34,284 bases of DNA from Oscillospiraceae bacterium (lineage in GTDB: Bacteria; Bacillota; Clostridia; Oscillospirales; Oscillospiraceae). Positions 15,670-31,459 of this stretch are shown piece by piece. The stretch spans positions 1-34,284 of the forward strand of contig SVKL01000018.1 in assembly GCA_015068495.1 (NCBI GenBank), read 5' to 3'. The stretch's first letter is position 1. Every line of letters starts with the position of its first letter. The position numbers were made by a program, and so were the translations under genes. The notes beneath the pieces are model-generated. The model did no database searches. It saw only the letters and a list, made by a program, of their open reading frames with translations, and had not been told where the DNA came from.

Positions 15670-16869
15670 TTATTTGTCTTCCAAGCAAGCGATACCAGGA
15701 AGTTCCAGACCCTCCAAGAACTCGAGGGAAGCGCCGCCGCCGGTGGAGATGTGGGTGATTTGAGAAGCAAAGCCCAACTGCTCGCAGGCAGCTGCGGAGT
15801 CACCGCCGCCAACGATGGTCACAGCATCGGAATCAGCCAGTGCCTGTGCAACGGCGATGGTGCCCTTTGCCAAAGTGGGGTTCTCAAACACGCCCATAGG
15901 TCCGTTCCAAACAACGGTCTTGGCGCTCTTAGCAGCAGCAGCAAACTCTGCGCAAGCCTTGGGGCCGATGTCCAGACCCATCTGGTCGGCAGGGATAGCG
16001 GTGCAATCCACGTAATCAACAGCAATTTCAGCGTCGATGGGGGAGGGGAAGGAAGCGGCAACAGCGGTGTCAACAGGCAGCAGCAGCTTTACGCCCTTAG
16101 CCTCTGCCTTTGCCATCATTTCCTTGCAGTACTGAAGCTTCTCGTTGTCAACCAGGCTCTTACCAACGGTGTAGCCCTGAGCTGCCAAGAAGGTGTAAGC
16201 CATACCGCCACCGATGATCAAGGTGTCTACCTTTTCCAGCAGGTTATTGATAACGTTCAGCTTATCGGAAACCTTAGCGCCGCCCAAAATAGCAACGAAG
16301 GGACGCTCGGGGTTGGCCAAAGCCTTGCCCATAATGGAAACTTCCTTCTGCACCAGATAGCCGGAAACAGCAGGCAGGTAGTCAGCAACACCTGCGGTGG
16401 AGGAGTGGGCACGGTGAGCAGTGCCGAAAGCGTCATTGACAAAAATGTCAGCCATAGATGCCAAATCCTTGCTCAGCTGTGCGTCATTCTTGGTCTCGCC
16501 TGCAATGTAACGGGTGTTTTCCAGCAGCATTACATCGCCGTCTTTCAGGGCAGCGGCCTTTGCCTTGGCATCTTCGCCGGCTACGTCGGCAGCCATAATG
16601 ACTTCCTTGCCCAGCAGCTCGCTTAGACGGGCAGCAACCACCTTCAGGCTCAGCTCAGGCTTCCACTCGCCCTTGGGCTTACCCATATGGGAGCACAGGA
16701 TTACCTTAGCGCCCTTGTTCACCAAATACTCGATGGTGGGCATAGCAGCCACGATACGCTTGTCGGAAGTGATTTTGCCTTCCTTGGTGGGGACGTTGAA
16801 GTCGCAGCGGCACAGCACGCGCTTGCCGGCTACTTCAATGTCTTCAATGGACTTTTTGTTGTAGTTCAT
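15670..16869 (-). CDS. pgk: Phosphoglycerate kinase
   Basis: This 399-residue enzyme has the standard length and motifs: [11 protein letters not shown] near the N-terminus, the HMGKPKGEW and HRAHSS substrate-binding segments, the [11 protein letters not shown] hinge region and the C-terminal nucleotide loop [10 protein letters not shown]. It transfers phosphate between 1,3-bisphosphoglycerate and ADP in glycolysis. ACGGAGGAA precedes the ATG. It is preceded by trmL (20 bases between frames) and followed by tpiA. The gap and gpm genes often found in clostridial glycolytic operons are not here. Confidence 0.98.
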
Positions 16870-16889
16870 AGTTATTCCTCCGTAATTGG

Positions 16890-17372
16890 TTATTTTTTCA
16901 TTTTGCCGAAGTCCTGCAGATGGGGAAAGTCCAGCTGCCGCAGGGCTTCAAAAACGGTGATGGCCACCGCATTGCTCAAATTCAAACTGCGGGCTTCTTC
17001 CCGCATAGGAATCCGGACGCAGCTATCGTAATGGGCTTCCAGAAAATCCTCCGGCAGGCCCTTGGTTTCCTTGCCGAAAAACAGATAGCAATCGTCACTG
17101 TATTCTGCTTCGGTGTAGCTTTTAGGCGCTTTGGTGGATAAACACCACATTTGGCGGACATCATTCTGAGAGAAGAAGTCTTCCAGATTCTCGTAATCCC
17201 GGACATTTACCAAATTCCAGTAATCAAGGCCCGCACGTTTCACAGCCTTTTCAGAAATGTCAAAGCCCAAGGGGCGAATCAAATGCAGATTGCAGCCGGT
17301 AGCGGCGCAGGTGCGGGCAATATTGCCGCAGTTTTGCGGAATTTCCGGCTCTACCAGCACAATATTCAGCAT
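16890..17372 (-). CDS. trmL: tRNA (cytidine/uridine-34 2'-O-)-methyltransferase
   Basis: This 160-residue SPOUT-class methyltransferase starts [20 protein letters not shown], matching TrmL. The C-terminal trefoil knot shows [29 protein letters not shown] and a final helix. It methylates the wobble ribose of tRNA-Leu isoacceptors using S-adenosylmethionine. The ATG at 17372 is preferred over the GTG at 17381, since GAGGTG lies 6 bases before it and the product then begins as known TrmL proteins do. It is first in the trmL-pgk-tpiA unit, under its own promoter. Confidence 0.93.
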
Positions 17373-17412
17373 TTTCTTCACCTCGGCTGTGTTATTTCTT
17401 GATTGCCCACCT

Positions 17413-17441
17413 ATTGTATGATAAAAGTCTCACAAAATCAA
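17413..17441 (-). promoter_or_regulatory. Promoter of the trmL-pgk-tpiA unit
   Basis: On the minus strand TTGATT (17436-17441), a 17-bp spacer and TACAAT (17413-17418), 40 bases upstream of the trmL start. Confidence 0.6.
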
Positions 17442-17542
17442 TGGAAAAATTGCAAAAAAATCAACTTTTTATAGTATTCACATAAAAAATGCCCCCTGCC
17501 GTTGGATTTTGTGGAAAATGCGGACAGGCAGCCAAGGTGGGA

Positions 17543-17571
17543 TTGACATTTGACCGGATTTGTGAGAAAAT
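17543..17571 (+). promoter_or_regulatory. aspS promoter
   Basis: TTGACA (17543-17548), a 17-bp spacer and GAAAAT (17566-17571) lie 33 bases before the start. The leader is too short for a T-box. Confidence 0.6.
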
Positions 17572-17604
17572 AAATCAAAAATTTACCAGTAAGGGGATTT
17601 TCTT

Positions 17605-19383
17605 ATGATGCAATCCAGAACCCATACCTGCGGAGAGCTGCGGCTTGCAGATGCAGGAAAACAGGTGACCATCGTCGGTTGGATGGAGAACGTCCGCGAG
17701 GTTGGCGCTAACTTTGCTTTTGTGGTGCTTCGCGACTTTTACGGCACTACACAGGTGGTTATTGAAACCGAGGAAATGATGAAGGCCATCAAGGGGCTGA
17801 ATAAGGAGACAACCATTTCCGTCACCGGCGCTGTCCGTGAGCGTGAGAGCAAGAATCCTAAGCAGGCCACCGGTGAAATCGAGGTTGTGCCTACCGAAAT
17901 TAAGGTATTGGGCAAGTGTGTGCATAACAGCCTGCCCTTTGAAATCAACAAGAGCCGGGATGCAGACGAGAATGTCAGATTAAAGTACCGTTACCTTGAC
18001 CTGCGCAACCCCGCGGTGAAGAGCAACATTATCCTGCGCTGTCAGGTGGTTGCCGAGCTGCGCCGGCTGATGACCGAAAAGGGCTTTTTGGAGATTACCA
18101 CACCGATTCTGACCGCATCCTCCCCCGAGGGCGCAAGAGATTTTTTGGTGCCTGCCCGTAACCACCCCGGCAAGTTCTACGCCCTGCCTCAGGCACCTCA
18201 GCAGTTTAAGCAGCTGCTGATGACCTCCGGCTTTGACCGCTATTTCCAGATTGCACCCTGCTTCCGGGATGAGGATGCCCGCGCTGACCGTACCCCCGGC
18301 GAATTTTATCAGCTGGATATGGAAATGGCTTTCGCAAGCCAAAACGATGTGCTGACCACCTTGGAAGAGGTGCTGGTGCCTGTGTTTGAGAAGTTCGGCA
18401 AGTATAAGCGGATTTCTCAGGCGCCTTTCCGTCACATTCCCTTTAACGAAGCAATGGAGCGCTACGGCTCCGATAAGCCCGACCTGCGTATTGATTTGGA
18501 AGTGCAGGATATTACCGCTGAAGTGCAGGGCTGTGAATTCGGCCCGTTCCAAAATGCAACCGTTAAGGCGGTTGCCGTGGATAACTTCGCAGAGGGCAGA
18601 AAGTGGATTGATAAGCTCTTAAATGACGTAGAAGTGCAGACCGGCAACAAGGCCTGCTGGATTAAGGTGGACGAAAACGGCCAGTTTACCGGCGGTGTTT
18701 CCAAATTCCTCACCGACTACACGGCAGCCCTCACGGAGAAGCTGAGCTTGAAGCCCGGCAGCTTTGTGTGTATGGCAGCGGGCAAAAAGACCGCCGCCCA
18801 AAAGACCGCCGGCGTTATCCGCAATATGATGGGTAAGCGTATCCCCGGTCACTTTGACGAAGAGCAGTATGCAATGTGCTGGATTGTGGACTTCCCCATG
18901 TATGAAATGGGCGAAGAAAGCGGCGAGCTGGAGTTCTGCCACAACCCCTTCTCTATGCCTCAGGGCGGTATGCAGGCGCTGCTGGATGCCGAGGGCGACA
19001 ACGAAAAGCTTTTGGCAATCAATGCAGACCAGTATGACTTGGTGGTCAACGGCTATGAGTCTGCTTCCGGCGCTGTCCGTAACCACGACCCCGAAATTAT
19101 GGTCAAGGCCTTCCAGATGGTGGGCTTGGGCGAAGAGGACGTGAAGGCAAAGTTCCCCGCAATGTACAACGCCTTTACCTACGGAGCACCTCCCCACGCA
19201 GGCGCAGCCCCCGGTGTTGATCGTTTGGTGATGCTGCTCACCGGCGAGGAATCCATCCGTGAGGTTATCACCTTCCCCTTAAACAAGACCGCGCAGGACT
19301 TGATGATGGATGCCCCCACAACAGTTTCCCAAAAGCAGCTGGATGATGTGCATATCCTCATTAACGAGAGCCACTTACAGTAA
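17605..19383 (+). CDS. aspS: Aspartyl-tRNA synthetase
   Basis: This 592-residue class II synthetase has the bacterial-type layout. An N-terminal OB anticodon-binding domain (about 1-105, GWMENVREVGANFAFVVLRD) precedes motif 2 (CFRDEDARADRTPGEFYQLD). A GAD insertion domain (about 295-415) follows, then motif 3 with GAPPHAGAAPGVDRLVMLL. It charges tRNA-Asp. AAGGGGATTTTCTT precedes ATG 17605; the next codon is also ATG, so the start could be three bases later. It is transcribed alone and ends at a strong bidirectional terminator. Whether it is discriminating or also charges tRNA-Asn cannot be decided from this window. Confidence 0.97.
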   Translation: MMQSRTHTCGELRLADAGKQVTIVGWMENVREVGANFAFVVLRDFYGTTQVVIETEEMMKAIKGLNKETTISVTGAVRERESKNPKQATGEIEVVPTEIKVLGKCVHNSLPFEINKSRDADENVRLKYRYLDLRNPAVKSNIILRCQVVAELRRLMTEKGFLEITTPILTASSPEGARDFLVPARNHPGKFYALPQAPQQFKQLLMTSGFDRYFQIAPCFRDEDARADRTPGEFYQLDMEMAFASQNDVLTTLEEVLVPVFEKFGKYKRISQAPFRHIPFNEAMERYGSDKPDLRIDLEVQDITAEVQGCEFGPFQNATVKAVAVDNFAEGRKWIDKLLNDVEVQTGNKACWIKVDENGQFTGGVSKFLTDYTAALTEKLSLKPGSFVCMAAGKKTAAQKTAGVIRNMMGKRIPGHFDEEQYAMCWIVDFPMYEMGEESGELEFCHNPFSMPQGGMQALLDAEGDNEKLLAINADQYDLVVNGYESASGAVRNHDPEIMVKAFQMVGLGEEDVKAKFPAMYNAFTYGAPPHAGAAPGVDRLVMLLTGEESIREVITFPLNKTAQDLMMDAPTTVSQKQLDDVHILINESHLQ

Positions 19384-19391
19384 ATAAAATG

Positions 19392-19424
19392 AAACAGGCA
19401 CTGCCGTCGGCAGTGCCTGTTTTT
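19392..19424. terminator. Bidirectional terminator between aspS and the modular protein gene
   Basis: A 14-bp perfect stem (19392-19405 with 19409-19422) begins with As and ends with Ts, 9 bases after the aspS stop and 9 bases before the end of the convergent gene. Confidence 0.93.
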
Positions 19425-19432
19425 ATATGTTT

Positions 19433-22400
19433 TTAGTTTTGTGTCCACTTGGCATACAAAGTGATGTCCGAGCCAATGGGGGCGCCGGCGGTTGCCTTTA
19501 CCTCATTGGAACGTTCAGCCTTGTAGTACCAGCCTTCAAAGGTGTAGCCGTCTGCAGACAGTACCGGCAGGGTTTCCGGCAGGCGGTAGGTGGCTTCGAT
19601 GGTTTCCGGCTGTGTACCGATGCCCTTGTTGTCAAAGGTGACGGTGCATTGCAGGCGGTCAACCAGCTTGTCGGCAAATGCGGGGTCGATGTAGCTTGCA
19701 TTGCCGGCAGCGCTGCCATCCACATAGGTGGGGTTCATAATGATGAACTGATACAGGTCTTCCGCGATCTGTGCGTGACCGGCATCGTTGGGGTGTACGT
19801 AGTCAGCCAGATACTGGGTCAGGTGATCGTTATCTGCGTTCTTGTAGTACAGATTGCCGTAGCGGTTCAGGTCGATCACGGGAATCTCGTAGTAAGCGCA
19901 GGTTTTGATCAGCGCCTCGCAGTAATCCCGCATGGTCCAGCCGGCGGCGTTGACCTTGTTCTGGTCGCCGTGACGGGAGGCAGAATTGTTGACAACACTC
20001 AAGTTGACCAGACCGGGGATGGGAGTGACGAAGAAGAATTTGGTATCCTTGCAGGCATCGTCGTTGCGGAGCGCAACCACCTGTTCGCACCAGCGCTTCA
20101 GTGCGCCGTAGACGGTTTCGGTGCTGTCCTCTAAGAAAGTGCCCATATCATTGACACCGGCTACAGCGCAGTTAAAGTCGTTGGTGCCCATCATAATGGT
20201 GACCACCGCCGCGCCGGAGCAGTTGTTCAGGGTTAACTTTCCGAAATTACATCCGGTTGTGGAGGAGGTGCCGGTACACAGGGTTGTGCCGTTTGCACCC
20301 AGATTTGTATAGGTTGCGCCCAGCTTGCCGGCAAGCAGCGTTACATATTTTGCGCTTGTGCCGCTGGCACCGATGCCGTTGGTGATACTGTCACCGATGC
20401 AAACGATTTTTTTGCCGCTGTAATAGTCGGAAGACAGAGGCTGTGCTACCAAAACAGGTCCCTCCGGTGTTGTGGGTGTAGAAGGTGTAATGTAGGGCAG
20501 GGTTTCATATCCTTCCATTCCTGCTACATGCAAGGCCAAAACAAGTTCATCCAAACTGTTAATCTTTCCGTCAACATTCACATCTGCAGCGGCTTCATTT
20601 ATAGGTTTAGTATTCATACCTGCTACATACAAGGCTAAATCCAATTCATCCAAACTGTTAATCTTTCCGTCATTATTCACATCACCACAAATCGTTTCCA
20701 CAACTGCTTCTTCTACAGTTACAAGGCCGCTTGCTGTATGGAAATAGACCTTATCAAGATTTACGTTGTAAATGTCGTGATTGCTATAATCATAGGAGAT
20801 TTCGATGGGGTAGTCTCCGGTCTCCGCGTCTTCCGCTACTTCAAATACCAGCGTCACAACGGCTCCGTTGTGAGTGATATCTTGGTCGATTGTATCGTTA
20901 GCCCAAGACAGGGTATATGGGGAAACCAACTCCGGCTTATGTGCCTGCGTTCCAAGGTTGCCCAGGTCGTTCACTTCAACCAGAGTCAATGCTTCTGTGT
21001 CGAAATTCACTTGCAGTGTTGCAGATGCGATACCGGGGTTGTTGGCAAAAGAAATGTTAACAGACACGCTGTTTCCTGCATAAGTCTTTGTTGTATCGGC
21101 AAAAATCTTTGGTGCATTTTCCTCATAGGAATAGCCGCAGGCGCAGGAGTAGGTCACGGTGTCAGGATTGTCATCAGGCGACTCCGGCTCTGCAAAGGTA
21201 AAACTGTGGGGTTCTGTGTCAAGCACATCATTGCAGCTGCATTCTTTCCAGTGATTTGTTGCGTCATACTTGGTTACATAGTTGTGGGTATGGACAACCT
21301 CAGCCGTAACCAGGCAGCCTTCATTCTGACAGGTGTCAGCCGTTGTTGCGTCATCGTCGAATGCGTGAGCCGCTGCGGCTTCTGCAACAGCATCGCAGTT
21401 GGCGCACTTGTCAGCGGTGGTGCAGTCGTTATCGAAGGTGTGTGACCGGGGTGCCACTGTTGCGCCACAGTTTGGACAGATGCCGCCTGTTGCGCAGTCA
21501 ACAACGTGGGTGCATGCGGGGGAAATCTTCAGGTATTGCAGATAGCTGTCAACAGCAGTCATATCTGTGCCGGGAGCAATGTAATCTGCATTTGCTGTGT
21601 CGGTGGTCAGGAAGCTCCTGGTGGTGTTCCGATTGTTGGCAACTTTGTATTCTACCAGATGTTCGCCTATGGTCTGGGGGAATCTGGGAAGTTCAGCGCT
21701 GGTCCAGCCGGTCTGACCGCCGTTGGCAGTCATATCGATTTCCAGCGTGGCGTTTTCCACAATCACACCGCCGGTTGCGCCGATGGGGTAGGAGTTGCCT
21801 TTGCCGATGATTTTTACGTAAGCGCCGTTCTGAATGGTTACGGTCTTGCTTGTCAGCGTGCTGGTATTACCGGTGCCTTGACCGGTTGCGCTTGTCATAT
21901 AGGCAATACCACGGCCGTTGGTTATGTTGTTTAATACCATACTGCCGCCGTCAATGACCAGCAAGCCGGGAAGATGAGCATCTGTGTCAGCGGAGCCTGC
22001 CAAACCGATACAGGGACGGTAGGTGCCGGAAACAGTCAGATTCACATTGGCATCCTTGAAAGTCAAATTGTATTTGGTGCCAATCGCAACGGCGGAATTG
22101 CCGGTTGCGGTGACATTACCCACGAGGCTGCCGGAACCGGTTACGGTGGTGCCCAGTGTTGCGGCGAAGTATATAGGATAAGAAGTGGAACTTGCTGCCG
22201 TACTGGTGAAGGTGTTGGTTGTGCCTTCCACAGAACTCAGAACAAATGCGCCGTTTGTTGTAACGTTCAGCGCGGCAACGCCACTTTCTGCGGTGGTCAG
22301 GGTTGCATTCTTCAGATACAGTGTGGGAGTCTGACCGGTGGTGTAATCCAAATGGATATTCCAGTTGTCAGTGGGCTCACACTGGGTAGCTGCACCGGTG

Positions 22401-23914
22401 GTTGCATCTGTAGTCGCGTACTTGTGGGTGCCTTCTGCAATGTTTTCCCATGCAAGACCGGTCATTTTCACAGTGATCGCATACTGACCCACTGTTACTT
22501 TTTTGCTGTCGCTTACTGCGCTGCAGTTATCACACTGCACATAGTAGGAAGCAAGCGAGGTAGTGGTTGCGGCGCTGGCCAGCTGATCAGATGCCTTGCC
22601 GGTGAAGCTGTGGGCAGCGGCGGCAGTTGCCACTGCTTCGCATCTTGCGCACTTGTCAGCAGTGGTGCAATCGTCATCAAATGCGTGAGCGTTGTCTGCA
22701 GTTGCTACAGTTGCGCAGTTTGCGCAGATGTCAGCGGTGGTGCAGTCGTTGTCGAAGACGTGGTTTGCCTGAGGCTCTACTGTTGCGCCGCAGTCTGTGC
22801 AGATGCCGCCTTTTGTACAGTCAGCTACATTGCATACGTGGGAAATCTTCAGGTAGTCGAGATTTCCGTCAACAGTACTCAAATCAGTTCCCGGTGCGAT
22901 ATAATCAGCATCCTGACTGTCTGCCTCGCTGTTGCCTGTGTACAGGAAACTCTTCGTGGTGTTTTTGTCAGTGCTCAGCTTGTACTCCACGAAATGGGTA
23001 CCGGTTAACGCAGGGAAGTCGGTAGGCTCACCATATCCGGACCAACCGGTCTTTTCATATTGAAAGGTGCTGTTGGTGATATAAACCTTACCTTCACCGC
23101 CCATACCAAAAAGATTGTGGGTCGCATATGCGGAGCAGGTCACTTCAGCACCGTCTGTAATATAGATGTTCTTATCATTTTCATTCAGTTTGCTACCAAT
23201 GTCAGTACTCGTTCTTAGGTAGCCGATTACCTGACCAATGTAGGAGGTCAGCTTCACCTTACCGCCCTTGAAGGTCACTTCACCGGGGCAGTGCGCTAGG
23301 GAAGAACCGCCGGACGCGCCAATGGTAATCGTACCCTGACGACCGCTTTCTGTAAGCAGTTCTGCGTCAGCGTGGTCAAAGGTCAGATCGTAAGCTGTTC
23401 TGATCGCAGCGCCAGCCCAATCGGAGGAATCACTGCCGCTTCTGTTTTCGGCGATCAGCTTGCCGGTACCGGTTACGGTTGTGCCTTTCGATGCGGCAAA
23501 GAACAGCGGGTTGGAGTTGGACTTCGTAACCGTACTGGTAATTGTATTTGTGCTTCCTTCTACGGAATGCAGAACGAATGCGCCTGTGGTAGTAACGCTG
23601 ATTGCAGAAACACCCTGCGTTGCTGTGGTCAGGGTTGCATTCTTCAGATACAGTGTGGGAGTCTGACCGGTGGTGTAATCCAAATGGATATTCCAGTTGT
23701 CAGTGGGCTCACACTGGGTAGCTGCACCGGTGGTTGCATCTGTAGTCGCGTACTTGTGGGTGCCTTCTGCAACGTCGGTCCATTCAAGACCGGTCATTGC
23801 CACGGTGACGGTGGGGGCGGCGGCCATAGCTGTGACAGGAGCCAGAGATGCGATCATAGCCAAAGCCATAACCAAACTCAGCAACCGCTTCCATTGTTTT
23901 TTGTTTTCTAACAT
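19433..23914 (-). CDS. Secreted modular protein: duplicated modules, cohesin-like, dockerin, SGNH esterase, InlB repeat
   Basis: This 1493-residue protein has a signal peptide (1 to about 31, cleavage after AMA). Two homologous modules (about 34-364 and 475-800) have beta-helix-like, carbohydrate-binding-type sequence. Each ends in a Cys-rich segment of repeated CxxC/Cx5C units with HxFDxDCTTAD motifs (about 355-452 and 800-935). Next come a cohesin-type domain (about 936-1070) and a dockerin with two calcium-binding repeats (D1078 onward and D1111 onward, each DVNxDGKINSLDEL). The SGNH hydrolase domain has S1176 in GDSIT, GTND at 1243-1246 and D1371/H1374 in DYVH. An InlB-type B-repeat (about 1423-1493) ends the protein; there is no LPXTG or SLH anchor. 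The enzyme is probably an extracellular esterase or deacetylase acting on glycans; the substrate is unknown. AAAGGAG precedes the start. Confidence 0.88.
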   Translation of the reverse strand: MLENKKQWKRLLSLVMALAMIASLAPVTAMAAAPTVTVAMTGLEWTDVAEGTHKYATTDATTGAATQCEPTDNWNIHLDYTTGQTPTLYLKNATLTTATQGVSAISVTTTGAFVLHSVEGSTNTITSTVTKSNSNPLFFAASKGTTVTGTGKLIAENRSGSDSSDWAGAAIRTAYDLTFDHADAELLTESGRQGTITIGASGGSSLAHCPGEVTFKGGKVKLTSYIGQVIGYLRTSTDIGSKLNENDKNIYITDGAEVTCSAYATHNLFGMGGEGKVYITNSTFQYEKTGWSGYGEPTDFPALTGTHFVEYKLSTDKNTTKSFLYTGNSEADSQDADYIAPGTDLSTVDGNLDYLKISHVCNVADCTKGGICTDCGATVEPQANHVFDNDCTTADICANCATVATADNAHAFDDDCTTADKCARCEAVATAAAAHSFTGKASDQLASAATTTSLASYYVQCDNCSAVSDSKKVTVGQYAITVKMTGLAWENIAEGTHKYATTDATTGAATQCEPTDNWNIHLDYTTGQTPTLYLKNATLTTAESGVAALNVTTNGAFVLSSVEGTTNTFTSTAASSTSYPIYFAATLGTTVTGSGSLVGNVTATGNSAVAIGTKYNLTFKDANVNLTVSGTYRPCIGLAGSADTDAHLPGLLVIDGGSMVLNNITNGRGIAYMTSATGQGTGNTSTLTSKTVTIQNGAYVKIIGKGNSYPIGATGGVIVENATLEIDMTANGGQTGWTSAELPRFPQTIGEHLVEYKVANNRNTTRSFLTTDTANADYIAPGTDMTAVDSYLQYLKISPACTHVVDCATGGICPNCGATVAPRSHTFDNDCTTADKCANCDAVAEAAAAHAFDDDATTADTCQNEGCLVTAEVVHTHNYVTKYDATNHWKECSCNDVLDTEPHSFTFAEPESPDDNPDTVTYSCACGYSYEENAPKIFADTTKTYAGNSVSVNISFANNPGIASATLQVNFDTEALTLVEVNDLGNLGTQAHKPELVSPYTLSWANDTIDQDITHNGAVVTLVFEVAEDAETGDYPIEISYDYSNHDIYNVNLDKVYFHTASGLVTVEEAVVETICGDVNNDGKINSLDELDLALYVAGMNTKPINEAAADVNVDGKINSLDELVLALHVAGMEGYETLPYITPSTPTTPEGPVLVAQPLSSDYYSGKKIVCIGDSITNGIGASGTSAKYVTLLAGKLGATYTNLGANGTTLCTGTSSTTGCNFGKLTLNNCSGAAVVTIMMGTNDFNCAVAGVNDMGTFLEDSTETVYGALKRWCEQVVALRNDDACKDTKFFFVTPIPGLVNLSVVNNSASRHGDQNKVNAAGWTMRDYCEALIKTCAYYEIPVIDLNRYGNLYYKNADNDHLTQYLADYVHPNDAGHAQIAEDLYQFIIMNPTYVDGSAAGNASYIDPAFADKLVDRLQCTVTFDNKGIGTQPETIEATYRLPETLPVLSADGYTFEGWYYKAERSNEVKATAGAPIGSDITLYAKWTQN
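22293..22440 (-). repeat. 148-bp perfect repeat, second-module copy
   Basis: Identical base for base to 23625-23772, same orientation, offset 1332 bp (444 codons). It encodes about residues 492-541, the start of the second N-terminal-type module. Confidence 0.95.
23625..23772 (-). repeat. 148-bp perfect repeat, first-module copy
   Basis: Partner of 22293-22440. It encodes about residues 48-97. Flanking parts of the two modules are clearly diverged, so this tract looks recently homogenised. Confidence 0.95.
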
Positions 23915-24002
23915 TTTTCAGATTCTCCTTTTGGTGTAGGAATGATGCTTTTTTTATAGGGTCCCGTGTCCGGAATTGCCACAGAAAACCGGAGCGAGAG
24001 AC

Positions 24003-25466
24003 CTATCCTTTGTATCTGGGCTGGCAGGTGAGATTGACACCCAACCGCTTAAAGGTTTTCTCGTCCACAGGAGACAGAATTACAGAGGAGTGCACCTCGC
24101 AGCCTCGCAGCTTGCCCAGCTGCTCCATCGCCATTTCCGCCCGGGGGTCGGTGGCGGCGCAAATAGACAGGGCAATCAGCACCTCGTCGGTGTGCAGACG
24201 GGGGTTTCGGTTTCCAAAATGGTCTACCTTCAAATGCTGAATGGGGTCAATTACCTCGGGGGCAATCAAATGGAGGGCATCGTCAATTCCGGCCAGTGTC
24301 TTCAAGGCGTTGAGCAGCAGCGCTGCCGATGCGCCCAAAAGGCTGGAGGTTTTGCCGGTAACAATGGTGCCGTCGGGCAATTCCATTGCCGCTGCGGGCT
24401 TGCCGGTCTGCTCTGCGATTTCCAGAGCCGGCTTAACTACCCGCCGGGCGTCCTCGGTTACGTTTGCCTTTTTCATCAGCAGTTCCAGCTTTAGAATCTG
24501 CCCGTTTTCCGCCTTGCCCTGCTTTTGGTCACACAGGGCGGTATAATACCGGCGGACAATCTCCTGCCGGGATGCTTCGCAGCACACTTCGTCATCCACA
24601 ATGCAGTTGCCCACCATATTCACGCCCATATCCGTGGGGGATTTATAAGGACAGGTGCCCAAAATCCGCTCAAACATCGCAACCAGCACCGGGAATGCTT
24701 CCACATCACGGTTGTAGTTGGTGGTGGTTTCCTTGTAGGCTTCCAAATGGAAGGGGTCGATCATATTCACATCGGAAAGGTCAGCAGTTGCCGCCTCGTA
24801 GGCTAAGTTCACAGGGTGATTCAGCGGCAGATTCCAAACCGGGAAGGTCTCAAATTTTGCATAGCCTGCTTTTACGCCCCGCTTGTGCTCGTGATAAAGC
24901 TGGCTCATACAGGTAGCAAGCTTGCCGCTGCCGGGGCCGGGGGCAGTCACCACAACCAGCTCTCTGGTGGTTTCGATGAAGTCATTTTTTCCGTAGCCAA
25001 CATCGCTGACGATGTGGGCGATGTTGGCAGGATATCCGGGGATGTCGTAGTGGTGATAGACCTTGATATCCATAGCCTCCAACCGGTCGCAGAAAGCTTT
25101 TGCCATACTCTGACCGGAAAAACGGGTAAGTACCACGCTGGAAACGTACAGTCCGAAGCCCCGGAACACATCAATCAAACGAATGACGTCCCGGTCATAG
25201 GTGATGCCCAAATCTCCGCGGATTTTGTTTTTCTCAATGTCATCGGCGTTGATGGCGATGACCATCTCCACCTGCTGCTTCAGCTCCAGCAGCATTTGCA
25301 GCTTACTGTCCGGCTGAAAACCGGGAAGTACTCTGGATGCGTGATTGTCGTCGTACAGCTTGCCGCCAAACTCCAAATACAGCTTGCCGCCAAACTGGGC
25401 GATTCGCTCCCGAATATGGGCAGATTGGGTGCGGATATATTTGTCGTTATCGTAACCCAGCTTCAT
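24003..25466 (-). CDS. DUF1846 family protein
   Basis: This protein of 487 residues matches the DUF1846/UPF0371 family, which has a conserved length near 500 and begins MKLGYDNDKYI here. A GPGSGK segment in VVVTAPGPGSGKLATCMSQ resembles a phosphate-binding loop and lies in a Rossmann-like N-terminal half. Family function is unknown; structures suggest a nucleotide- or phosphate-binding enzyme. The start at 25466 is chosen because GAGGCGAGGG precedes it and the family starts there; 13 extra in-frame codons upstream lack support. It has its own promoter and no clear terminator before the modular protein gene 88 bases downstream, so cotranscription is possible. Confidence 0.88.
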   Translation of the reverse strand: MKLGYDNDKYIRTQSAHIRERIAQFGGKLYLEFGGKLYDDNHASRVLPGFQPDSKLQMLLELKQQVEMVIAINADDIEKNKIRGDLGITYDRDVIRLIDVFRGFGLYVSSVVLTRFSGQSMAKAFCDRLEAMDIKVYHHYDIPGYPANIAHIVSDVGYGKNDFIETTRELVVVTAPGPGSGKLATCMSQLYHEHKRGVKAGYAKFETFPVWNLPLNHPVNLAYEAATADLSDVNMIDPFHLEAYKETTTNYNRDVEAFPVLVAMFERILGTCPYKSPTDMGVNMVGNCIVDDEVCCEASRQEIVRRYYTALCDQKQGKAENGQILKLELLMKKANVTEDARRVVKPALEIAEQTGKPAAAMELPDGTIVTGKTSSLLGASAALLLNALKTLAGIDDALHLIAPEVIDPIQHLKVDHFGNRNPRLHTDEVLIALSICAATDPRAEMAMEQLGKLRGCEVHSSVILSPVDEKTFKRLGVNLTCQPRYKG

Positions 25467-25516
25467 TATTCCCTCGCCTCTTTTCTGCAGATTTCGCAAA
25501 AACAAATACTTTGTTT

Positions 25517-25545
25517 ATTGTATCGGAAATTTTCGAAAATAGCAA
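25517..25545 (-). promoter_or_regulatory. Promoter of the DUF1846 gene
   Basis: On the minus strand TTGCTA (25540-25545), a 17-bp spacer and TACAAT (25517-25522), 50 bases upstream of the start. Confidence 0.65.
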
Positions 25546-25567
25546 GATGCTTTTCTATTTTTTCTAA

Positions 25568-25599
25568 AAAGGACGTGTTGCAAAAAGCAACACGTCCTT
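25568..25599 (-). terminator. Terminator of htpG
   Basis: A 13-bp perfect stem (25569-25581 with 25587-25599), loop of five bases, begins 4 bases past the htpG stop; the minus-strand flank is T-rich. Confidence 0.9.
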
Positions 25600-25603
25600 A
25601 GCC

Positions 25604-27493
25604 TTATTTCATTAGCTTGCAAACCAGTTGTGCATAGGCAACAGGGTCGGTTAACGGCAAATCTGCCATCAGCAGCGCCTGCCCGTGGAGCAGCTCGGCG
25701 TAGTCCTTTGCCTTTTGGGAATCGCCAATCATTGCTTGTTCCATTGCCTGAACGGCAGGGTGGTTGGGATTCAGCTCCAAAATACGCTGACTGGGGAAGG
25801 GCATATCGGGGTTTGCCCGCCGCATATACTTCTCCATTTCAAAGCTCATACCCGTACCGGGGGTCATCATAACGGGAGCATCCCCCAAGGAAGCGGACAG
25901 CTTGACCTCTTGCACTGCCTCTGCCAAGGTGTCCTTTACAAAGGTAAGCAGGCCCTGCATTTGCTGGGACTTTTCCTCCAGCTCCTTTTTGTCGTCCTCG
26001 CTTTGCAGACCCAAATCCTCGGTAGAGGCGTTGCAGAAGGCTTTTTCTTCGTATTTCATCAAGGTCTGCGCCACAAATTCATCCACCTCATCGGTGAACA
26101 TCAGCACATCGTAGCCCTTGTCGGCAAGCAGCTTCACCTGCGGCATTTTCGCCAGTCTCTCTACGCTCTCGCCACAAATGTAGTAGATTTTTTCCTGACC
26201 CTCTGCCATTGCATCCAAGTAGGCTTTTAGGGTAATCAGCTTGCCTTCCTTGTGGGAGTAGAACAAAAGCAGATCCTGTGTGGCCTCTTTGTGAGCGCCG
26301 TAGTTCATCACCGCGCCGTATTTCAGCTGGCGGCCGAACTGGGCGAAGAATTTTTCATAGCTGTCAAAGTCATTGTCCAGCATAGATTTCAGCTCTGCCT
26401 TGATTTTCTTTTCAATATTCTTGGCAATCACTGTGAGCTGCCGGTTGTGCTGCAGCATTTCGCGGCTGATATTCAGACTCAAATCCTGACTGTCCACAAC
26501 GCCCCGGACAAAGCCGAAGTATTCCGGCACCAAATCCTCACAGCTGTCCATAATCATTACGCCGGAGGAATACAGCTGCAAGCCCCGCTTGTAGTCCTTG
26601 GAGTAGAAATCAAAGGGCGCTTTCTCGGGGATATACAGCAGAGCCTTATAGGATACCGTACCCTCTGCGCTGGTGTGAACGGTGCGCAGGGGCTTGTTGT
26701 AGTCAAAGAACTTTTCCCGGTAGAATTGGGTGTATTCCTCCTCGGTCACGTCCTTTTTTGCTCTGTGCCACAGAGGTATCATAGAGTTGAGGGTATCTTC
26801 CTCCATATAGCTTTCGTATTCCGGCTTGTCCTCGGGAGAATCCTCTTTTTTGCGGGATTTGCTTATCTCCATACGAATGGAGTAGCGGATATAATCGGAG
26901 TACTTTTTCACCAGCTGACGGATTTCGTATTCCTCCAGAAAACGGGAATACTGCTCGTCGTCGGTATCTGCCTTCAGTGTCATAATGACGTCTGTGCCGG
27001 TGGTTTCTCTCTGGGCTTCTTCAATGGTGTAGCCGTCGGTGCCGTTGGAAGTCCACTTCCAGGCAGTGTCCTCGCCGTGCTTTTTGGAAATCACCGTCAC
27101 CTGCTTGGCGACCATAAACGCCGCATAGAAGCCGACGCCAAACTGACCGATAATGTCAATATCCTCGTTTTTCTCCATCTGCGCCTTGAAGCCCAAAGAG
27201 CCGGATTTGCAGATGGTGCCCAAGTTTTCTTCCATCTCCTCTTTGGACATACCGATGCCGTTGTCGGACACGGTAAGAACGCCGGCGTCCTTGTTCCGTG
27301 TGATGGTAATGGCAAGGTCGCTGCGGTGAATACCCACCTTGTCATCGGTCAATGCGGTGTATGCCAGCTTGTCAAGGGCGTCGCTGGCGTTGGAGAGGAT
27401 TTCACGGAGAAAAATCTCCTGATGGGTGTAAATGGAGTGAATCATCAAGTCCAGCAGTCGCTGGGATTCCGCCTTAAATTTTTTCTTAGCCAT
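25604..27493 (-). CDS. htpG: Hsp90 chaperone HtpG
   Basis: This 629-residue Hsp90 is the usual bacterial length. The N-terminal ATPase shows the GHKL motifs: the asparagine in EILSNASDALDKL, DNGIGM, and GQFGVGFYAAF. The middle domain has the NISREMLQ loop region that carries the catalytic arginine, and a C-terminal dimerisation domain follows. It is a cytoplasmic ATP-dependent chaperone for client folding. GAAAGGAAG precedes the start. A perfect CIRCE operator sits between promoter and start, so heat-shock control by HrcA is expected. It is a single-gene unit ending in a strong terminator. Confidence 0.97.
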   Translation of the reverse strand: MAKKKFKAESQRLLDLMIHSIYTHQEIFLREILSNASDALDKLAYTALTDDKVGIHRSDLAITITRNKDAGVLTVSDNGIGMSKEEMEENLGTICKSGSLGFKAQMEKNEDIDIIGQFGVGFYAAFMVAKQVTVISKKHGEDTAWKWTSNGTDGYTIEEAQRETTGTDVIMTLKADTDDEQYSRFLEEYEIRQLVKKYSDYIRYSIRMEISKSRKKEDSPEDKPEYESYMEEDTLNSMIPLWHRAKKDVTEEEYTQFYREKFFDYNKPLRTVHTSAEGTVSYKALLYIPEKAPFDFYSKDYKRGLQLYSSGVMIMDSCEDLVPEYFGFVRGVVDSQDLSLNISREMLQHNRQLTVIAKNIEKKIKAELKSMLDNDFDSYEKFFAQFGRQLKYGAVMNYGAHKEATQDLLLFYSHKEGKLITLKAYLDAMAEGQEKIYYICGESVERLAKMPQVKLLADKGYDVLMFTDEVDEFVAQTLMKYEEKAFCNASTEDLGLQSEDDKKELEEKSQQMQGLLTFVKDTLAEAVQEVKLSASLGDAPVMMTPGTGMSFEMEKYMRRANPDMPFPSQRILELNPNHPAVQAMEQAMIGDSQKAKDYAELLHGQALLMADLPLTDPVAYAQLVCKLMK

Positions 27494-27519
27494 TGGTTAT
27501 GCTTCCTTTCATCAGTGCG

Positions 27520-27546
27520 TTAGCACTCTTTTTATGTGAGTGCTAA
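27520..27546 (-). promoter_or_regulatory. CIRCE operator (HrcA site) upstream of htpG
   Basis: TTAGCACTC (27520-27528), nine bases, GAGTGCTAA (27538-27546): a perfect match to the CIRCE consensus. It begins about one base past the htpG -10 box and covers the expected transcription start, ending 27 bases before the start codon. Confidence 0.97.
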
Positions 27547-27547
27547 A

Positions 27548-27575
27548 ATTATATCACACCCCCAACAAAATGCAA
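27548..27575 (-). promoter_or_regulatory. htpG promoter
   Basis: On the minus strand TTGCAT (27570-27575), a 16-bp spacer and consensus TATAAT (27548-27553), directly abutting the CIRCE operator. Confidence 0.85.
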
Positions 27576-27627
27576 CCCCTTTTTGAAAAATTCTCGAAAT
27601 GTTCATAAAGACGTAGCGCTTTGCCCG

Positions 27628-27666
27628 AAAAAACTTGGCTCTCCCAATGGGAAAGCCAAGTTTTTT
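27628..27666. terminator. Terminator of the pdaA-like gene, bidirectional form
   Basis: A 13-bp stem (27628-27640 with 27654-27666) plus an imperfect inner stem has six As on one side and six Ts on the other. It lies 17 bases past the deacetylase stop. Confidence 0.9.
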
Positions 27667-27682
27667 CGCAAACAGCAATCTG

Positions 27683-28462
27683 TCAGGTGGGGGCAAACAG
27701 CTGATCAATGGAGGCAAAGCGGTAGCCGTCAGTCTCCCATTTGGTAAGCAATTCGTCCAGAATTTCTGCATTGGTGCTGGATGTGGAGTGGAGGAGCACC
27801 ACCGCCCCGTTGTGGATACGGGGGAGGAGCTTGCTGAAGGCCTGCTCCTTGGTGGGCTGGTCATCGTTTTTCCAGTCCACATAGGCAAGACTCCAGAAAA
27901 CGGTTTTGTAGCCCAATTCCTTTGCCATTTGCAGATTTTCCTGACTGTAAATCCCCTGAGGCGGCCGGTAGTATTTGGGCAGGTCCTTGCCGGTGGTCTG
28001 CTTGAACAGCGCTTCCAAATCCTGCAGCTCCTTTGCAAAAGCATCCTTGTCGGACAGCTTGCTCATATCCAAATGGTGCATCGTGTGGTTGCCGACAATG
28101 TGTCCCTCGTCCACCATACGCCGCACCAAATCGGCGTTCTTTTCTATGTAGTTGCCCACCAAGAAGAAGGCGGCTGGGACGTTGTGCTTTTTCAGTACGT
28201 CCAAAATCTTTTCGGTGCTGCCGTTTTCGTAGCCGGAGTCGAAGGTGAGGTAGATGACCTTTTCCGTTTCGTTCCCTAAGTAGGCGGCATCATACTGCTG
28301 CAGCTGCTTGTTTCCTGCCGGACCGGTGGGTGGCTGGCCCTCAGTCCGGAACGATAACCCCCAAGCGCCGGTTTCCAAGGTCAGCCCCCAAAATTGGGTC
28401 ACTGCTAAAACAACTGCGGCGCAAACCGCCGTCAGCGCAATCCACAAATCTTTTTTGCCCAT
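27683..28462 (-). CDS. PdaA-type polysaccharide deacetylase
   Basis: This 259-residue protein has an N-terminal signal anchor (about 5-25) and a NodB/CE4 domain. The motifs are TFDSGYENG (D75 as catalytic base), the metal-binding GNHTMHH, YRPPQGIYS and a final VVLLHST. The YENG sequence is typical of PdaA, the delta-lactam-biosynthetic de-N-acetylase that forms muramic delta-lactam in the spore cortex. That role is inferred from family resemblance; a vegetative peptidoglycan deacetylase is the alternative. The start at 28462 is chosen over 28468 because AAGGAGG is too close to the latter. It is divergent from the DUF554 gene. No convincing sigma-G promoter was resolved. Confidence 0.85.
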   Translation of the reverse strand: MGKKDLWIALTAVCAAVVLAVTQFWGLTLETGAWGLSFRTEGQPPTGPAGNKQLQQYDAAYLGNETEKVIYLTFDSGYENGSTEKILDVLKKHNVPAAFFLVGNYIEKNADLVRRMVDEGHIVGNHTMHHLDMSKLSDKDAFAKELQDLEALFKQTTGKDLPKYYRPPQGIYSQENLQMAKELGYKTVFWSLAYVDWKNDDQPTKEQAFSKLLPRIHNGAVVLLHSTSSTNAEILDELLTKWETDGYRFASIDQLFAPT

Positions 28463-28524
28463 AGACATATCCCTCCTTGGGAAAGTCTATGGGGAAATGT
28501 TTGCTGATATGTGGATAGTTTGTC

Positions 28525-28553
28525 TTTACAGCAGAAAAGAAAGGTGCTACAAT
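28525..28553 (+). promoter_or_regulatory. Promoter of the DUF554 gene
   Basis: TTTACA (28525-28530), a 17-bp spacer and TACAAT (28548-28553), 31 bases before the start codon. Confidence 0.7.
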
Positions 28554-28584
28554 AAAACAAGTTTTTTATAGGAGCGTGAAGCAA

Positions 28585-29304
28585 ATGGGAACGCTGATCA
28601 ATGCGGCATTGATTCTGCTGGGCGGAATAATCGGTTTGGTGTTCAAGAAAGCTGTCAGCAAGGAAATGGAATATTCCATACATAAAGCCACCGGTGTGGC
28701 GGTGTTGATTATCGGTATCTGCGGCGTGCTGTCAGCAATGCTGAAAACCAATGCCGACGGAAGCATTTCCAGCTCCGGGGAGCTGATTTTGGTGGTAAGC
28801 CTTGCACTGGGAACCTTTATCGGTGAGCTGCTGAAGCTGGAAACACGGCTGAATAAGGGCTGCAAATGGATTGAAAACAAGTTTAAGATGTCCAATTTTG
28901 CCACTGGCTTTATTACATCAACGATGATTTACTGCATCGGCGCTATGGCCATTGTGGGGGCAATCAACGACGGTTTGCTGGGAGACAGCAGCACCCTTGT
29001 TACCAAAGGCATTATTGACGGCATTACCTCTGTGGTGCTGGCGGCGTCCTTGGGCTACGGCGTTCTGTTCTCTGCGATACCTATATTAATATATCAAGGC
29101 GGTATGACGCTGCTGGCAGGACTGCTGGAAAATGTGCTGGTAGGGGAGCTGCTCAGTAACATCTGTATGGTCGGTTATGCGCTGGTGATGTGTATCGGCA
29201 TCAACTTCCTTTATAATGGTGATAAGCAGATTAAAACCGTGAATATGCTGCCGGCGCTCCTTGTTCCGGTGGGATATGCACTCATTAAAAATTTAATCGG
29301 ATAA
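28585..29304 (+). CDS. DUF554 family membrane protein
   Basis: This 239-residue protein of the DUF554/YqgA-YdfK family has about seven hydrophobic segments and the family start MGTLINAALILLGGIIGL. Conserved stretches include GTFIGELLKLE and FITSTMIYCIGAMAIVGAINDGLLGD. It is predicted to be an inner-membrane protein and its function is unknown; transport has been suggested for the family but not shown. ATG 28585 is preferred over the GTG at 28576 because AGGAGCG lies 8 bases before it. It has its own promoter, divergent from the deacetylase gene. An A/T-rich hairpin (29321-29341) may end the transcript. Confidence 0.85.
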   Translation: MGTLINAALILLGGIIGLVFKKAVSKEMEYSIHKATGVAVLIIGICGVLSAMLKTNADGSISSSGELILVVSLALGTFIGELLKLETRLNKGCKWIENKFKMSNFATGFITSTMIYCIGAMAIVGAINDGLLGDSSTLVTKGIIDGITSVVLAASLGYGVLFSAIPILIYQGGMTLLAGLLENVLVGELLSNICMVGYALVMCIGINFLYNGDKQIKTVNMLPALLVPVGYALIKNLIG

Positions 29305-29320
29305 ACTGACAAAAAATATT

Positions 29321-29341
29321 GAAAAAATTTGTGATTTTTTC
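29321..29341. other. A/T-rich dyad upstream of the S10 promoter
   Basis: GAAAAAAT (29321-29328) and ATTTTTTC (29334-29341) form an 8-bp dyad in a strongly A/T-rich tract just before the rpsJ promoter. It may act as an UP element, a weak terminator for the DUF554 gene, or both. Confidence 0.45.
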
Positions 29342-29352
29342 TAAAAAAGTTG

Positions 29353-29381
29353 TTGACAAGAAGCAGGTTTGGTGGTATCAT
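29353..29381 (+). promoter_or_regulatory. S10 ribosomal operon promoter
   Basis: TTGACA (29353-29358), a 17-bp spacer and TATCAT (29376-29381). The A/T-rich tract immediately upstream fits an UP element, as expected for a strongly expressed operon. Confidence 0.8.
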
Positions 29382-29387
29382 AATCGG

Positions 29388-29657
29388 GCACGCGTAGGGA
29401 AACTACGCCTTGTGCACTGCGATGATGCAGGAGATTGCGCTGAGTAAGCGGTAACTTCTGCGGAGTATGTCCGGTCATCGGGCGGCTGAACTGCTTCTGT
29501 TTAGCGCAGCGTATATCGTTGCGGCAGGAGAACGGTCGGCCTTGCGTCGGCCATTTTTCTTGGCTCAAAGTGATACGCACGGTTGCGTTAGCAGAAAGGT
29601 TCACCGTACCCAGACACCACGTAAACTGAGTACGAAATTCAAGGAGGAAACAAAACC
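29388..29657 (+). promoter_or_regulatory. Structured 5' leader of the S10 operon
   Basis: About 270 bases between promoter and rpsJ hold no credible gene but several hairpins: CGTAG/CTACG around GGAAA (with GCAC/GTGC outside, near 29388-29415), a long stem 29427-29461 (seven pairs plus an inner CGCT/AGCG stem), CGCAGCG/CGTTGCG (29505-29523), an attenuator-like hairpin at 29534-29552, and ACGCA/TGCGT near 29575-29588. Autogenous control by a ribosomal protein such as L4 is known for S10 operons elsewhere and is only an inference here. Confidence 0.7.
29534..29558 (+). terminator. Attenuator-like hairpin in the S10 leader
   Basis: GGTCGGC (29534-29540) pairs with GTCGGCC (29546-29552), two G-T pairs, 5-base loop, followed by A and TTTTT (29554-29558). 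It lies 100 bases before the rpsJ start and has the form of an intrinsic terminator. Confidence 0.6.
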
Positions 29658-29969
29658 ATGGCAAATCAGGAAATGATTCGCATCCGGCTGAAGGCTTATG
29701 ACCATCAGCTCATCGATTCCAGCGCAGCAAAGATTGTTGACACTGCAAAGCGCAACGGCGCTGCCGTGTCCGGCCCCATCCCCCTGCCCACCAAGAAGGA
29801 AGTTGTGACTATCCTTCGCGCTGTTCATAAGTATAAGGACAGCCGTGAGCAGTTCGAGCGTAGAACCCATAAGAGATTGATCGATATCCTCAACCCCAAC
29901 CAGAAGACTGTTGAGGCTCTGATGAGCTTGGACCTTCCCGCTGGCGTTGAGATAGAGATAAAGCTGTAA
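29658..29969 (+). CDS. rpsJ: 30S ribosomal protein S10
   Basis: This 103-residue protein is full length for S10, with [28 protein letters not shown] described as the N-terminal strand-helix and the [19 protein letters not shown] loop that reaches the 30S head near S3 and S14. S10 also serves as NusE in transcription antitermination. AAGGAGGAAAC precedes the ATG. It is the first gene of the S10 operon, following the structured leader, and is separated from rplC by 124 bases with a hairpin. Confidence 0.98.
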
Positions 29970-29994
29970 TTCCTATACATTATATATAGGAATT
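29968..29994 (+). other. Hairpin between rpsJ and rplC
   Basis: A 10-bp perfect stem (29968-29977 with 29985-29994) starts at the rpsJ stop codon. It is A/T-rich, with no T-run. A second two-part stem follows (GACGG near 30013-30018 with CCGTC near 30056-30061, enclosing GGGTC/GACCC). Processing or rplC translation control is possible. Confidence 0.6.
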
Positions 29995-30093
29995 CACCGC
30001 TGCCCGCACTGAAAAGCATCGGGCGACGGGTCATGTTGGCAGGAAGACCCAATGCTTCCGTCAACCAATAACCTAAAAAAGGAGAAAACCAAA

Positions 30094-30816
30094 ATGCAAA
30101 AAGCTATCATCGGCAAGAAAGTGGGTATGACCCAGATCTTCGATGAGACCGGCAAGGTAATCCCTGTTACCGTTGTGGAAGCAGGCCCCTGCACCGTAAC
30201 TCAGAAGAAGACCATCGAGACCGACGGCTACGAAGCCGTACAGCTGGGTTTTGAGTCCGTTAAGGAAGCAAAGCTCACCAAGCCTGAGGCTGGCCACCTG
30301 AAGAAGGCCGGCGTTGAGGCTGTCAAGCACCTGAAGGAGTTCCGTCTGGAAGACTGCTCTAGCCTGAATGTGGGCGACGTAGTTAAGGCTGACACCTTCG
30401 CAGCTGGCGACTGGATCGACGTGACCGGTATTTCCAAGGGCCACGGCTATCAGGGCGTCATCAAGCGCCACGGCGCACACCGTACCGATATGACCCACGG
30501 CGGCGGTCCTGTTCACCGTCACGCTGGTTCTATGGGTGCTTCCTCTCATCAGTCCCGTATCTTCCCCGGCAAGATTGGCGCCGGTCAGATGGGCAATGAG
30601 CAGGTTACCATTGAGAACCTGGAAGTTGTAAAGGTAGATGCAGAGCTGAATATGATCGTTATCCGCGGCGCCATTCCCGGCCCCAAGGGCGGTCTGGTCT
30701 ACATCCGCAACACTGTGAAGACCCACAAGGTAAAGCAGGCTGGTGCAGATATCAGCAAGAACCCGCAGAAGGCTTCCGGCAGAAACCCCCAGAAGGCTTC
30801 CGCAAGAAATGGCTAA
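30094..30816 (+). CDS. rplC: 50S ribosomal protein L3
   Basis: This 240-residue L3 starts at ATG 30094 behind AAAAAAGGAG; the longer upstream frame is not used by the family. Typical L3 sequence includes [12 protein letters not shown] at the start and the [24 protein letters not shown] loop (described) that approaches the peptidyl-transferase centre. Bacterial L3 is normally about 205-212 residues; the extra length is a C-terminal tail ending in two eight-residue repeats (223-230 and 231-238). It nucleates early 50S assembly on 23S rRNA. Confidence 0.98.
30760..30807 (+). repeat. 24-bp tandem duplication in the rplC tail
   Basis: Two adjacent 24-bp units (30760-30783, 30784-30807) encode NPQKASGR and NPQKASAR at the C-terminus of L3. 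They differ at a few bases. Confidence 0.9.
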
Positions 30817-30835
30817 GGAAAGGAGAACTTGAGAT

Positions 30836-31459
30836 ATGCTTAAGACTAATGTTTTGGATATGTCCGGCAAGGTTGTGGGCGAGATTGAGCTCTCCGAGGC
30901 TATTTTCGGCATTGCTCCCAACCAGTCCGTGGTTCACGACGTTGTTAAGAACCACTTGGCAAACCTCCGTCAGGGCACCCAGTCTGCTCTGACCCGCGCT
31001 GAAGTTTCCGGCGGTGGCCGTAAGCCTTGGCGTCAGAAGGGCACCGGCCGTGCCCGTCAGGGTTCCACCCGCGCTCCTCAGTGGACACACGGTGGTATCG
31101 CATTCGCTCCCAAGCCCCGGGATTACAGCTACACCCTGAACAAGAAGGCCAAGCGTCTGGCTCTGAAGTCTGCGCTGAGCGCTAAGGCTGCCGAGGCCGC
31201 AATCGTGGTCATCGACGAGATCAAGATGGACGCACCTAAGACCAAGGAATTTGCTGCTTTCCTGAACGCTGTTGGCGTACAGGGCAAGGCTCTGGTTGTT
31301 ACCGCTGCGGCAGACGCCAACGTGGTGAAGTCCGGCCGTAACATCGCCGGCTGCCAGGTAACCTTCGCAAACCTGCTGAACGTTTACGATGTTGTGAACG
31401 CCGGTCAGCTGGTAGTTGATAAGGCAGCCCTCCAGAAGATTGAGGAGGTATTCGCATAA
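30836..31459 (+). CDS. rplD: 50S ribosomal protein L4
   Basis: This 207-residue L4 has the globular domain plus the extended loop [20 protein letters not shown] that lines the exit tunnel near L22. In many bacteria L4 represses its own operon through the S10 leader, so it is the natural candidate ligand for the structured leader here. AAGGAAAGGAG precedes the start. Its stop overlaps the rplW start by one base (TAATG). Confidence 0.98.

Follow-up and report, generated by a model that had tools for sequence, protein, structure and literature searches.

Cohesins and dockerins can be found together in a single polypeptide in several bacteria. In the amylosome of Ruminococcus bromii, Amy4 (Sca1) harbors a GH13 enzyme, CBM26 modules, a cohesin and a dockerin in one chain, and its self-aggregation has been proposed (PMC5814915). 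In Paenibacillus guangzhouensis, 28 proteins have one dockerin-cohesin pair, many of them in association with an enzyme; SLH-anchoring cohesin proteins are also present and nearly all dockerins are found in cohesin proteins (PMC11557425). The bi-modular Coh-Doc proteins and ScaC from Ruminococcus flavefaciens display one cohesin and one dockerin, with 5-11 copies per strain (PMC4081043), GH31 proteins from Clostridium perfringens and Akkermansia muciniphila have a single cohesin and a single dockerin in addition to their catalytic domain (PMC12997984), and a GH9 scaffoldin with a dockerin is found in A. cellulolyticus (PMC3413522). Given these precedents, as described in the available parts of the reports, the kind of protein considered here is already known.

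This protein, P0001, is encoded in the window, i.e., the whole stretch of 34,284 nucleotides that was analysed. Its open reading frame (19433..23914, minus strand) has an ATG start and encodes 1,493 amino acids without internal stop, in the order signal peptide, two repeats of about 330 amino acids, cohesin, two-repeat dockerin, SGNH hydrolase and InlB-type repeat (Table 1). The original prediction of a cohesin, a dockerin and an SGNH hydrolase in one polypeptide was borne out, all three scoring above their Pfam cut-offs. The presence of cohesin and dockerin on one chain, which it had singled out, is indeed an unusual layout, but the same-chain cases in the available parts of the published reports, also with enzymes, mean that it is not unprecedented.

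Table 1. Modules of P0001 and adjacent terminator-like element, in window coordinates.
Feature	Position	Strand	Basis
Signal peptide, residues 1 to about 32	23819..23914	-	By eye from translation
Beta-helix module 1, residues 34-365	22820..23815	-	Predicted
Cys-rich spacer repeats, residues about 366-477	22484..22819	-	From translation
Beta-helix module 2, residues 478-805	21500..22483	-	By 49% identity to module 1
Second Cys-rich spacer, residues about 806-930	21125..21499	-	From translation
Type I cohesin, residues 931-1071	20702..21124	-	PF00963, AlphaFold2, Foldseek
Type I dockerin, residues 1077-1140	20495..20686	-	PF00404, 1daq match, model helices, near-identical calcium loops
SGNH/GDSL hydrolase, residues 1166-1390	19745..20419	-	PF13472, PF00657, S1176/D1371/H1374
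InlB B-repeat type domain (Flg_new), residues 1424-1489	19448..19645	-	PF09479
Terminator-like stem, gap between the P0001 gene and the convergent class II tRNA synthetase gene	19391..19423	.	Stem scan

The neighbours of the gene (window 15670-31459) have housekeeping functions: phosphoglycerate kinase, SpoU methylase, class II tRNA synthetase, DUF1846, HSP90 and ribosomal L3 and L4. The terminator-like element consists of a 15-pair and a 14-pair stem with T-rich tails, one per strand; 3 such sites were found in the region, fewer than the shuffle mean of 6.2. Since the P0001 protein cluster is present on 15 contigs, the longest of 329 kb, a one-off assembly chimera is unlikely. A separate record, P0002 (1,044 amino acids), has the same order of cohesin, dockerin, SGNH and Flg_new domains behind one repeat. 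At the C-terminus of P0001, the Flg_new domain (PF09479, 44.9 bits against a cut-off of 27 in the Pfam search of the whole protein) is followed by no sortase-type tail in the translation. Judging from its signal peptide, the protein would be secreted, and its only visible attachment device is the cohesin-dockerin pair.

Regarding this pair, PF00963 matches residues 938-1055 with 40.1 bits (cut-off 24.1) and PF00404 residues 1077-1126 with 45.5 bits (cut-off 22.9). A template-free AlphaFold2 model of residues 925-1146 displays a type I cohesin followed by dockerin helices, with a mean pLDDT of 90.8 and a pTM of 0.69, and in a Foldseek search with this model all of the 50 matches listed are cohesin or cohesin-complex entries (best E 1.3e-12; TM 0.79 on the target's length). 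The cohesin was thus upheld both by profile and by fold, which excludes any other beta-sandwich at 936-1070. The ligand pattern of dockerin calcium loops is D-x-N-x-D...N..D, with flanking helices. In P0001, the two loops (1078-1100 and 1111-1133) are identical at 20 of 23 positions, the helices are modelled at 1087-1097, 1107-1110 and 1120-1130, and among PDB sequences the dockerin matches that of CelS (1daq, E 7.3e-7). The predicted two-repeat dockerin at 1077-1133 is hence supported by its Pfam score, its two loops and its three predicted helices.

The two N-terminal modules (about 34-365 and 478-805), correctly recognized as a duplication in the original prediction, are 49% identical over 335 columns. 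Module 1 is a predicted beta-helix whose closest structure is Cthe_2159 (4peu), with 15% identity in the structural alignment. Foldseek yielded no match for the beta-helix at E <= 0.001, the likeness to Cthe_2159 having come from a second look with VIA, and PF14262, the family of Cthe_2159, has no match up to E 10 in the three modules searched (HMMER, filters on). Cthe_2159 is a pectin/cellulose binder with a beta-helix fold like that predicted for module 1. It can be hypothesized that the beta-helices of P0001 hold an acidic or cellulosic polysaccharide. The best matches of module 2 (67-76% identity) are proteins of contigs 10, 17 and 40 (C10, C17 and C40) and P0002, and Cys-rich spacer repeats similar to those of P0001 can be found in the C17 and C40 proteins of the same genome. 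P0041 starts as P0042 and ends as P0040, both of which match two adjacent beta-helix proteins of contig 10; it is either a strain-level recombinant between repeats or the product of an assembly collapse.

The SGNH/GDSL family is recognized by its Ser, Asp and His blocks. In P0001, PF13472 (Lipase_GDSL_2) matches residues 1172-1381 with 64.2 bits (cut-off 32.9), PF00657 also matches with 41.1 bits, and the candidate catalytic residues lie where they had been predicted, S1176 in GDSIT and D1371 and H1374 in DYVHP. The only enzyme-specific match is to the NCBIfam acetylxylan esterase AxeA1, at 19.6 bits against a cut-off of 700. The SGNH module may remove acyl groups from a polysaccharide held by the beta-helices.

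Like Amy4, P0001 combines enzyme, cohesin and dockerin on one chain. Instead of GH13 and CBM26 it has an SGNH domain and beta-helices, with no GH13 or starch-binding Pfam match. In R. bromii, moreover, scaffoldins exist as separate proteins and cohesin-dockerin binding has been measured. P. guangzhouensis is a soil bacterium with glycoside hydrolases and many copies of the pair, in contrast to two pairs and an esterase-type enzyme in a 1.77-Mb gut genome. The R. flavefaciens Coh-Doc proteins are adaptors in a large cellulosome and, in the available part of the report, no catalytic module is described on them, unlike the SGNH-bearing P0001. The enzymes of C. perfringens and A. muciniphila belong to another family, and the complexes of the former are described as pairwise (PMC12997984, in its available part). 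Among the open-licence papers listed, no title or abstract start deals with the cassette in Oscillospiraceae. As far as these searches show, the variant with an esterase and Cthe_2159-like modules, the evidence for an exchange of anchors and the Oscillospiraceae cassette with cohesin-gene neighbours are new.

Both parts of P0001 can also be found elsewhere in its genome. The SGNH and Flg_new part (1138-1493) is repeated, at 83% identity, in a protein of 496 residues, the start of which reads by eye as the lipobox LVACMLATVMVGC, a lipoprotein-type signal. The beta-helix with Cys-rich spacers recurs in proteins of 588 and 1,129 amino acids which end, by eye, in NPQTG, a hydrophobic stretch and KKR; three sortases score above the cut-off in this genome. 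Each half of P0001 thus also exists on a conventional-looking anchor, lipoprotein-type for the SGNH and sortase-type for the beta-helix, and the cassette probably replaces the lipid anchor or the sortase-type tail of the same modules elsewhere in the genome.

The genome (1.77 Mb, 92.9% complete) encodes six dockerins and six cohesins above Pfam cut-offs. At this profile sensitivity the window has no second cohesin or dockerin gene, as had been stated, and the further dockerin proteins to be searched for do exist, the other five matches of each kind lying on other contigs. The search for a scaffoldin came out negative: each of the six cohesins is the sole one found in its protein (one of these proteins has an N run), and in this assembly, 92.9% complete, a cellulosome in the strict sense is excluded, no multi-cohesin protein having been found.

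Among the candidate partners, the C10 set comprises a 1,026-residue protein with a cohesin-dockerin pair of its own (C10_1026), a 2,214-residue multi-beta-helix protein with a dockerin only (C10_2214) and a cohesin-only protein (L013:12273-15258). The latter adjoins the second cassette gene and is interrupted by a run of N within its array of Cys-rich repeats; in this broken assembly no anchor is seen on it, its first part has nothing convincing in Pfam besides the cohesin, and its three C-terminal modules, similar to the end of P0042, have no convincing PDB sequence match. Between P0001 and C10_1026, identity reaches 62% for the cohesins and 76% for the dockerins. These two cohesins have 36-39% identity to that of the cohesin-only protein, and the dockerins of the C10 and window set are 50-76% identical. 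Compared with the sets on contigs 20 and 26 (C20 and C26), P0001 and C10_1026 have only 16-30% identity in the cohesins and 28-36% in the dockerins; between all sets of the genome the ranges are 16-30% and 20-44%. P0001 and the C10 set are therefore likely, on these identities, to be same-class partners and would provide, in our reading, what a chain of base, link and cap needs.

The first C20 site encodes a pair of cohesin proteins with 39% identity; one has a PPKTG-type tail (14.0 bits with the Pfam anchor model, below the cut-off of 20) and the other a terminal hydrophobic segment. Beside them are a transglutaminase-like (PF01841) and an LRR-like protein, both with dockerin-like repeats (HVTMPNRFPL) at the end; these repeats were missed by the Pfam search and reach 14-16 bits with a custom profile. 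The four genes are adjacent (L015:3879-13955), alternating LRR-like, PPKTG-tailed cohesin, transglutaminase-like and hydrophobic-ended cohesin. On C26, a protein of 2,446 residues that starts with a dockerin adjoins a cohesin protein whose N-terminal part contains a hydrophobic segment. The second C20 site encodes two giant dockerin proteins, each of which (L016:6977-19898) adjoins a protein with a C-terminal hydrophobic segment and, by eye, an N-terminal cohesin-like domain. These domains have no Pfam cohesin match and an hhalign probability of 48%, and possibly represent a divergent cohesin class.

The modules, their order and the candidate partners in the genome are observed directly, and from these we infer self-assembly and every binding step that it would involve. 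The most likely reading, though no better than an even call, is that P0001 is an enzyme-bearing link of same-class cohesin-dockerin surface chains and does not belong to a cellulosome. The dockerin of P0001 would bind a cohesin of the same class on a neighbouring protein and the cohesin of P0001 would receive the next dockerin; in this way a surface chain could grow without a multi-cohesin scaffoldin. C10_1026 would be another link, the dockerin-only C10_2214 an end cap and the C10 cohesin-only protein a possible base. Tethering, which for these modules seems to depend on a lipid anchor or a sortase-type tail in other proteins of the genome, would here fall to the cassette.

The association of a cohesin directly followed by a dockerin, a cassette of about 210 amino acids, can be found in 25 of 39 homologues, a figure that gives no rate of occurrence since the cassette is part of the query (P0001 residues 925-1400) and scoring was limited to the 7,992 candidates with the most words in common. 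This excludes a cassette unique to P0001. It is C-terminal in 16 of the 25, internal in 6 and N-terminal in 3, and its partner domains are diverse and include lectin, peptidoglycan-binding, CHAP, VWA and SLH domains; according to the listed Pfam domains, only P0001 and P0002 among the 39 associate it with an SGNH domain. The cohesin and dockerin profile matches are 0-1 residues apart in 22 of the 25, 5 in the own-genome pairs and 16 in P0033. The cassette is scattered, since 31 of 150 genomes of the family have a match at 1e-6 and 9 a match spanning both modules; a separate-gene cohesin lies within 5 kb of 6 of the 13 listed both-module matches in these nine genomes (manual count). The architecture of P0001 is not conserved in the genus, since 60 other same-genus genomes gave partial matches only, the best (157.6 bits) to the SGNH part, and no full-length relative. 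Cohesin-dockerin-cohesin triplets occur in one chain in P0005, P0010, P0012, P0017 and L042; the two cohesins of P0005 are 71% identical, which would allow branching of a chain. Between P0001 and P0002, identity is 47% in the dockerin, 67% in the cohesin and 85% in the SGNH domain, and a dockerin diverging more than the cohesin could reflect a change of partner.

With regards to relatives, a separate cohesin gene is clearly present at 8 of 11 fetched cassette loci, which is not an unbiased rate because the loci were chosen for an earlier cassette match there, mostly with other matches nearby. An anchor is seen at three of these eight loci: the separate cohesin protein has SLH in L135 (123.9 bits) and a PPKTG-type tail in L142, and in L140 it ends in a hydrophobic segment with lysines after it. 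At a ninth locus, L136, an SLH protein (40.8 bits) has a cohesin below the cut-off (21.1 against 24.1 bits). A sortase-pattern match in a G152 frame running off its contig was left out.

Whether the two halves of a cassette belong to one class bears on the main alternative, in which P0001 is a type-switching adaptor: its dockerin would recognize one cohesin class, that of the anchor, and its cohesin another dockerin class, giving a single bridge and no self-chaining. Type switching is the role proposed for monovalent adaptors in the available part of PMC11557425, and the cohesin of the C10 cohesin-only protein, 36% identical to that of P0001, does not group with it, so that the P0001 dockerin may suit this protein and not its own cohesin. 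On the other hand, in a tree of 76 cohesins, of which many forks are poorly separated and the bootstrap is still unsettled, the cassette cohesin groups with that of the neighbouring gene in starred branches for G026, G033b, G072 and G152, which points to one class, and the dockerins of P0001, C10_1026 and C10_2214 group together. The adaptor is accordingly regarded as possible, though rather unlikely.

Of 23 cassette cohesins, 13 have their closest non-cassette cohesin within their own locus or protein (9 of 14 for separate genes alone, by manual reading) and the other 10 have it elsewhere, compared with a mean of 1.02 and a highest value of 5 in 2,000 shuffles. For both the tree and this test, the input was limited to cohesins of at least 60 bits and dockerins of at least 28 bits. 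The RGIG4139 rows, which duplicate G016a, were discarded, P0006 and P0007 both stayed in although they are near-copies, and C10_1026 stands in for P0008, of which it is the near-identical copy in the own genome. P0001 did not qualify for the test, there being no second cohesin on its contig. The pattern favours one binding class per locus, from which chaining would follow, while duplication of neighbours alone could also explain it. The argument fails at the home C10 locus, where the cohesin of the cohesin-only protein ranks 6th of 34 for C10_1026 and is only 36% identical to that of P0001.

It is improbable that P0001 is a plain surface enzyme docking through its dockerin on an anchored cohesin, with its own cohesin a structural spacer comparable to the X module before a dockerin. 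Such X-module-dockerin dyads (XDoc) are a known pattern (PMC3413522, in its available part), and P0011, P0020, P0023 and P0024 are related SGNH proteins with a dockerin and no cohesin match. Against this, the domain retains the full cohesin profile score and fold, its invariant residues are kept across 21 aligned rows, and a same-class dockerin-only protein, C10_2214, exists to fill it. Least credible, and very improbable, is a closed form in which cohesin and dockerin of one chain bind each other, making a calcium-dependent lock or a self-cap that opens before assembly. The two modules are joined covalently, and the linker of both own-genome pairs is longer than most by about four residues, but the last cohesin strand (to 1068) and the first calcium loop (1077) are only about 8 residues apart, and the pTM of the model, at a pLDDT of 91, gives a weak indication against a fixed two-domain complex.

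Returning to P0001 as a link of same-class chains, a wider and doubtful extension is that, in gut Oscillospiraceae and relatives, the cassette of about 210 residues is a general coupling by which wall-anchored cohesins seed open-ended chains of mixed effectors, open-ended because the cohesin and dockerin of each protein would be of one class. Esterase, CHAP, VWA, lectin and peptidoglycan-binding domains would be the effectors, with cohesin-only bases, cassette links and dockerin-only caps, and a scaffoldin-free surface fibre, of which P0001 would be one link, would replace the cellulosome scaffoldin. If P0001-type proteins only bridge, they would be one more case of an adaptor. If links are self-compatible, chains of enzymes and adhesins of no fixed length could be built with no scaffoldin gene, and surveys asking for a multi-cohesin protein would then miss them; the genome survey in PMC11557425, as described in its available part, required at least one such protein. 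The cassette would in that case offer, in about 210 residues, a minimal polymerising tag of natural origin, and the control of chain length by the ratio of caps, links and anchors would become testable.
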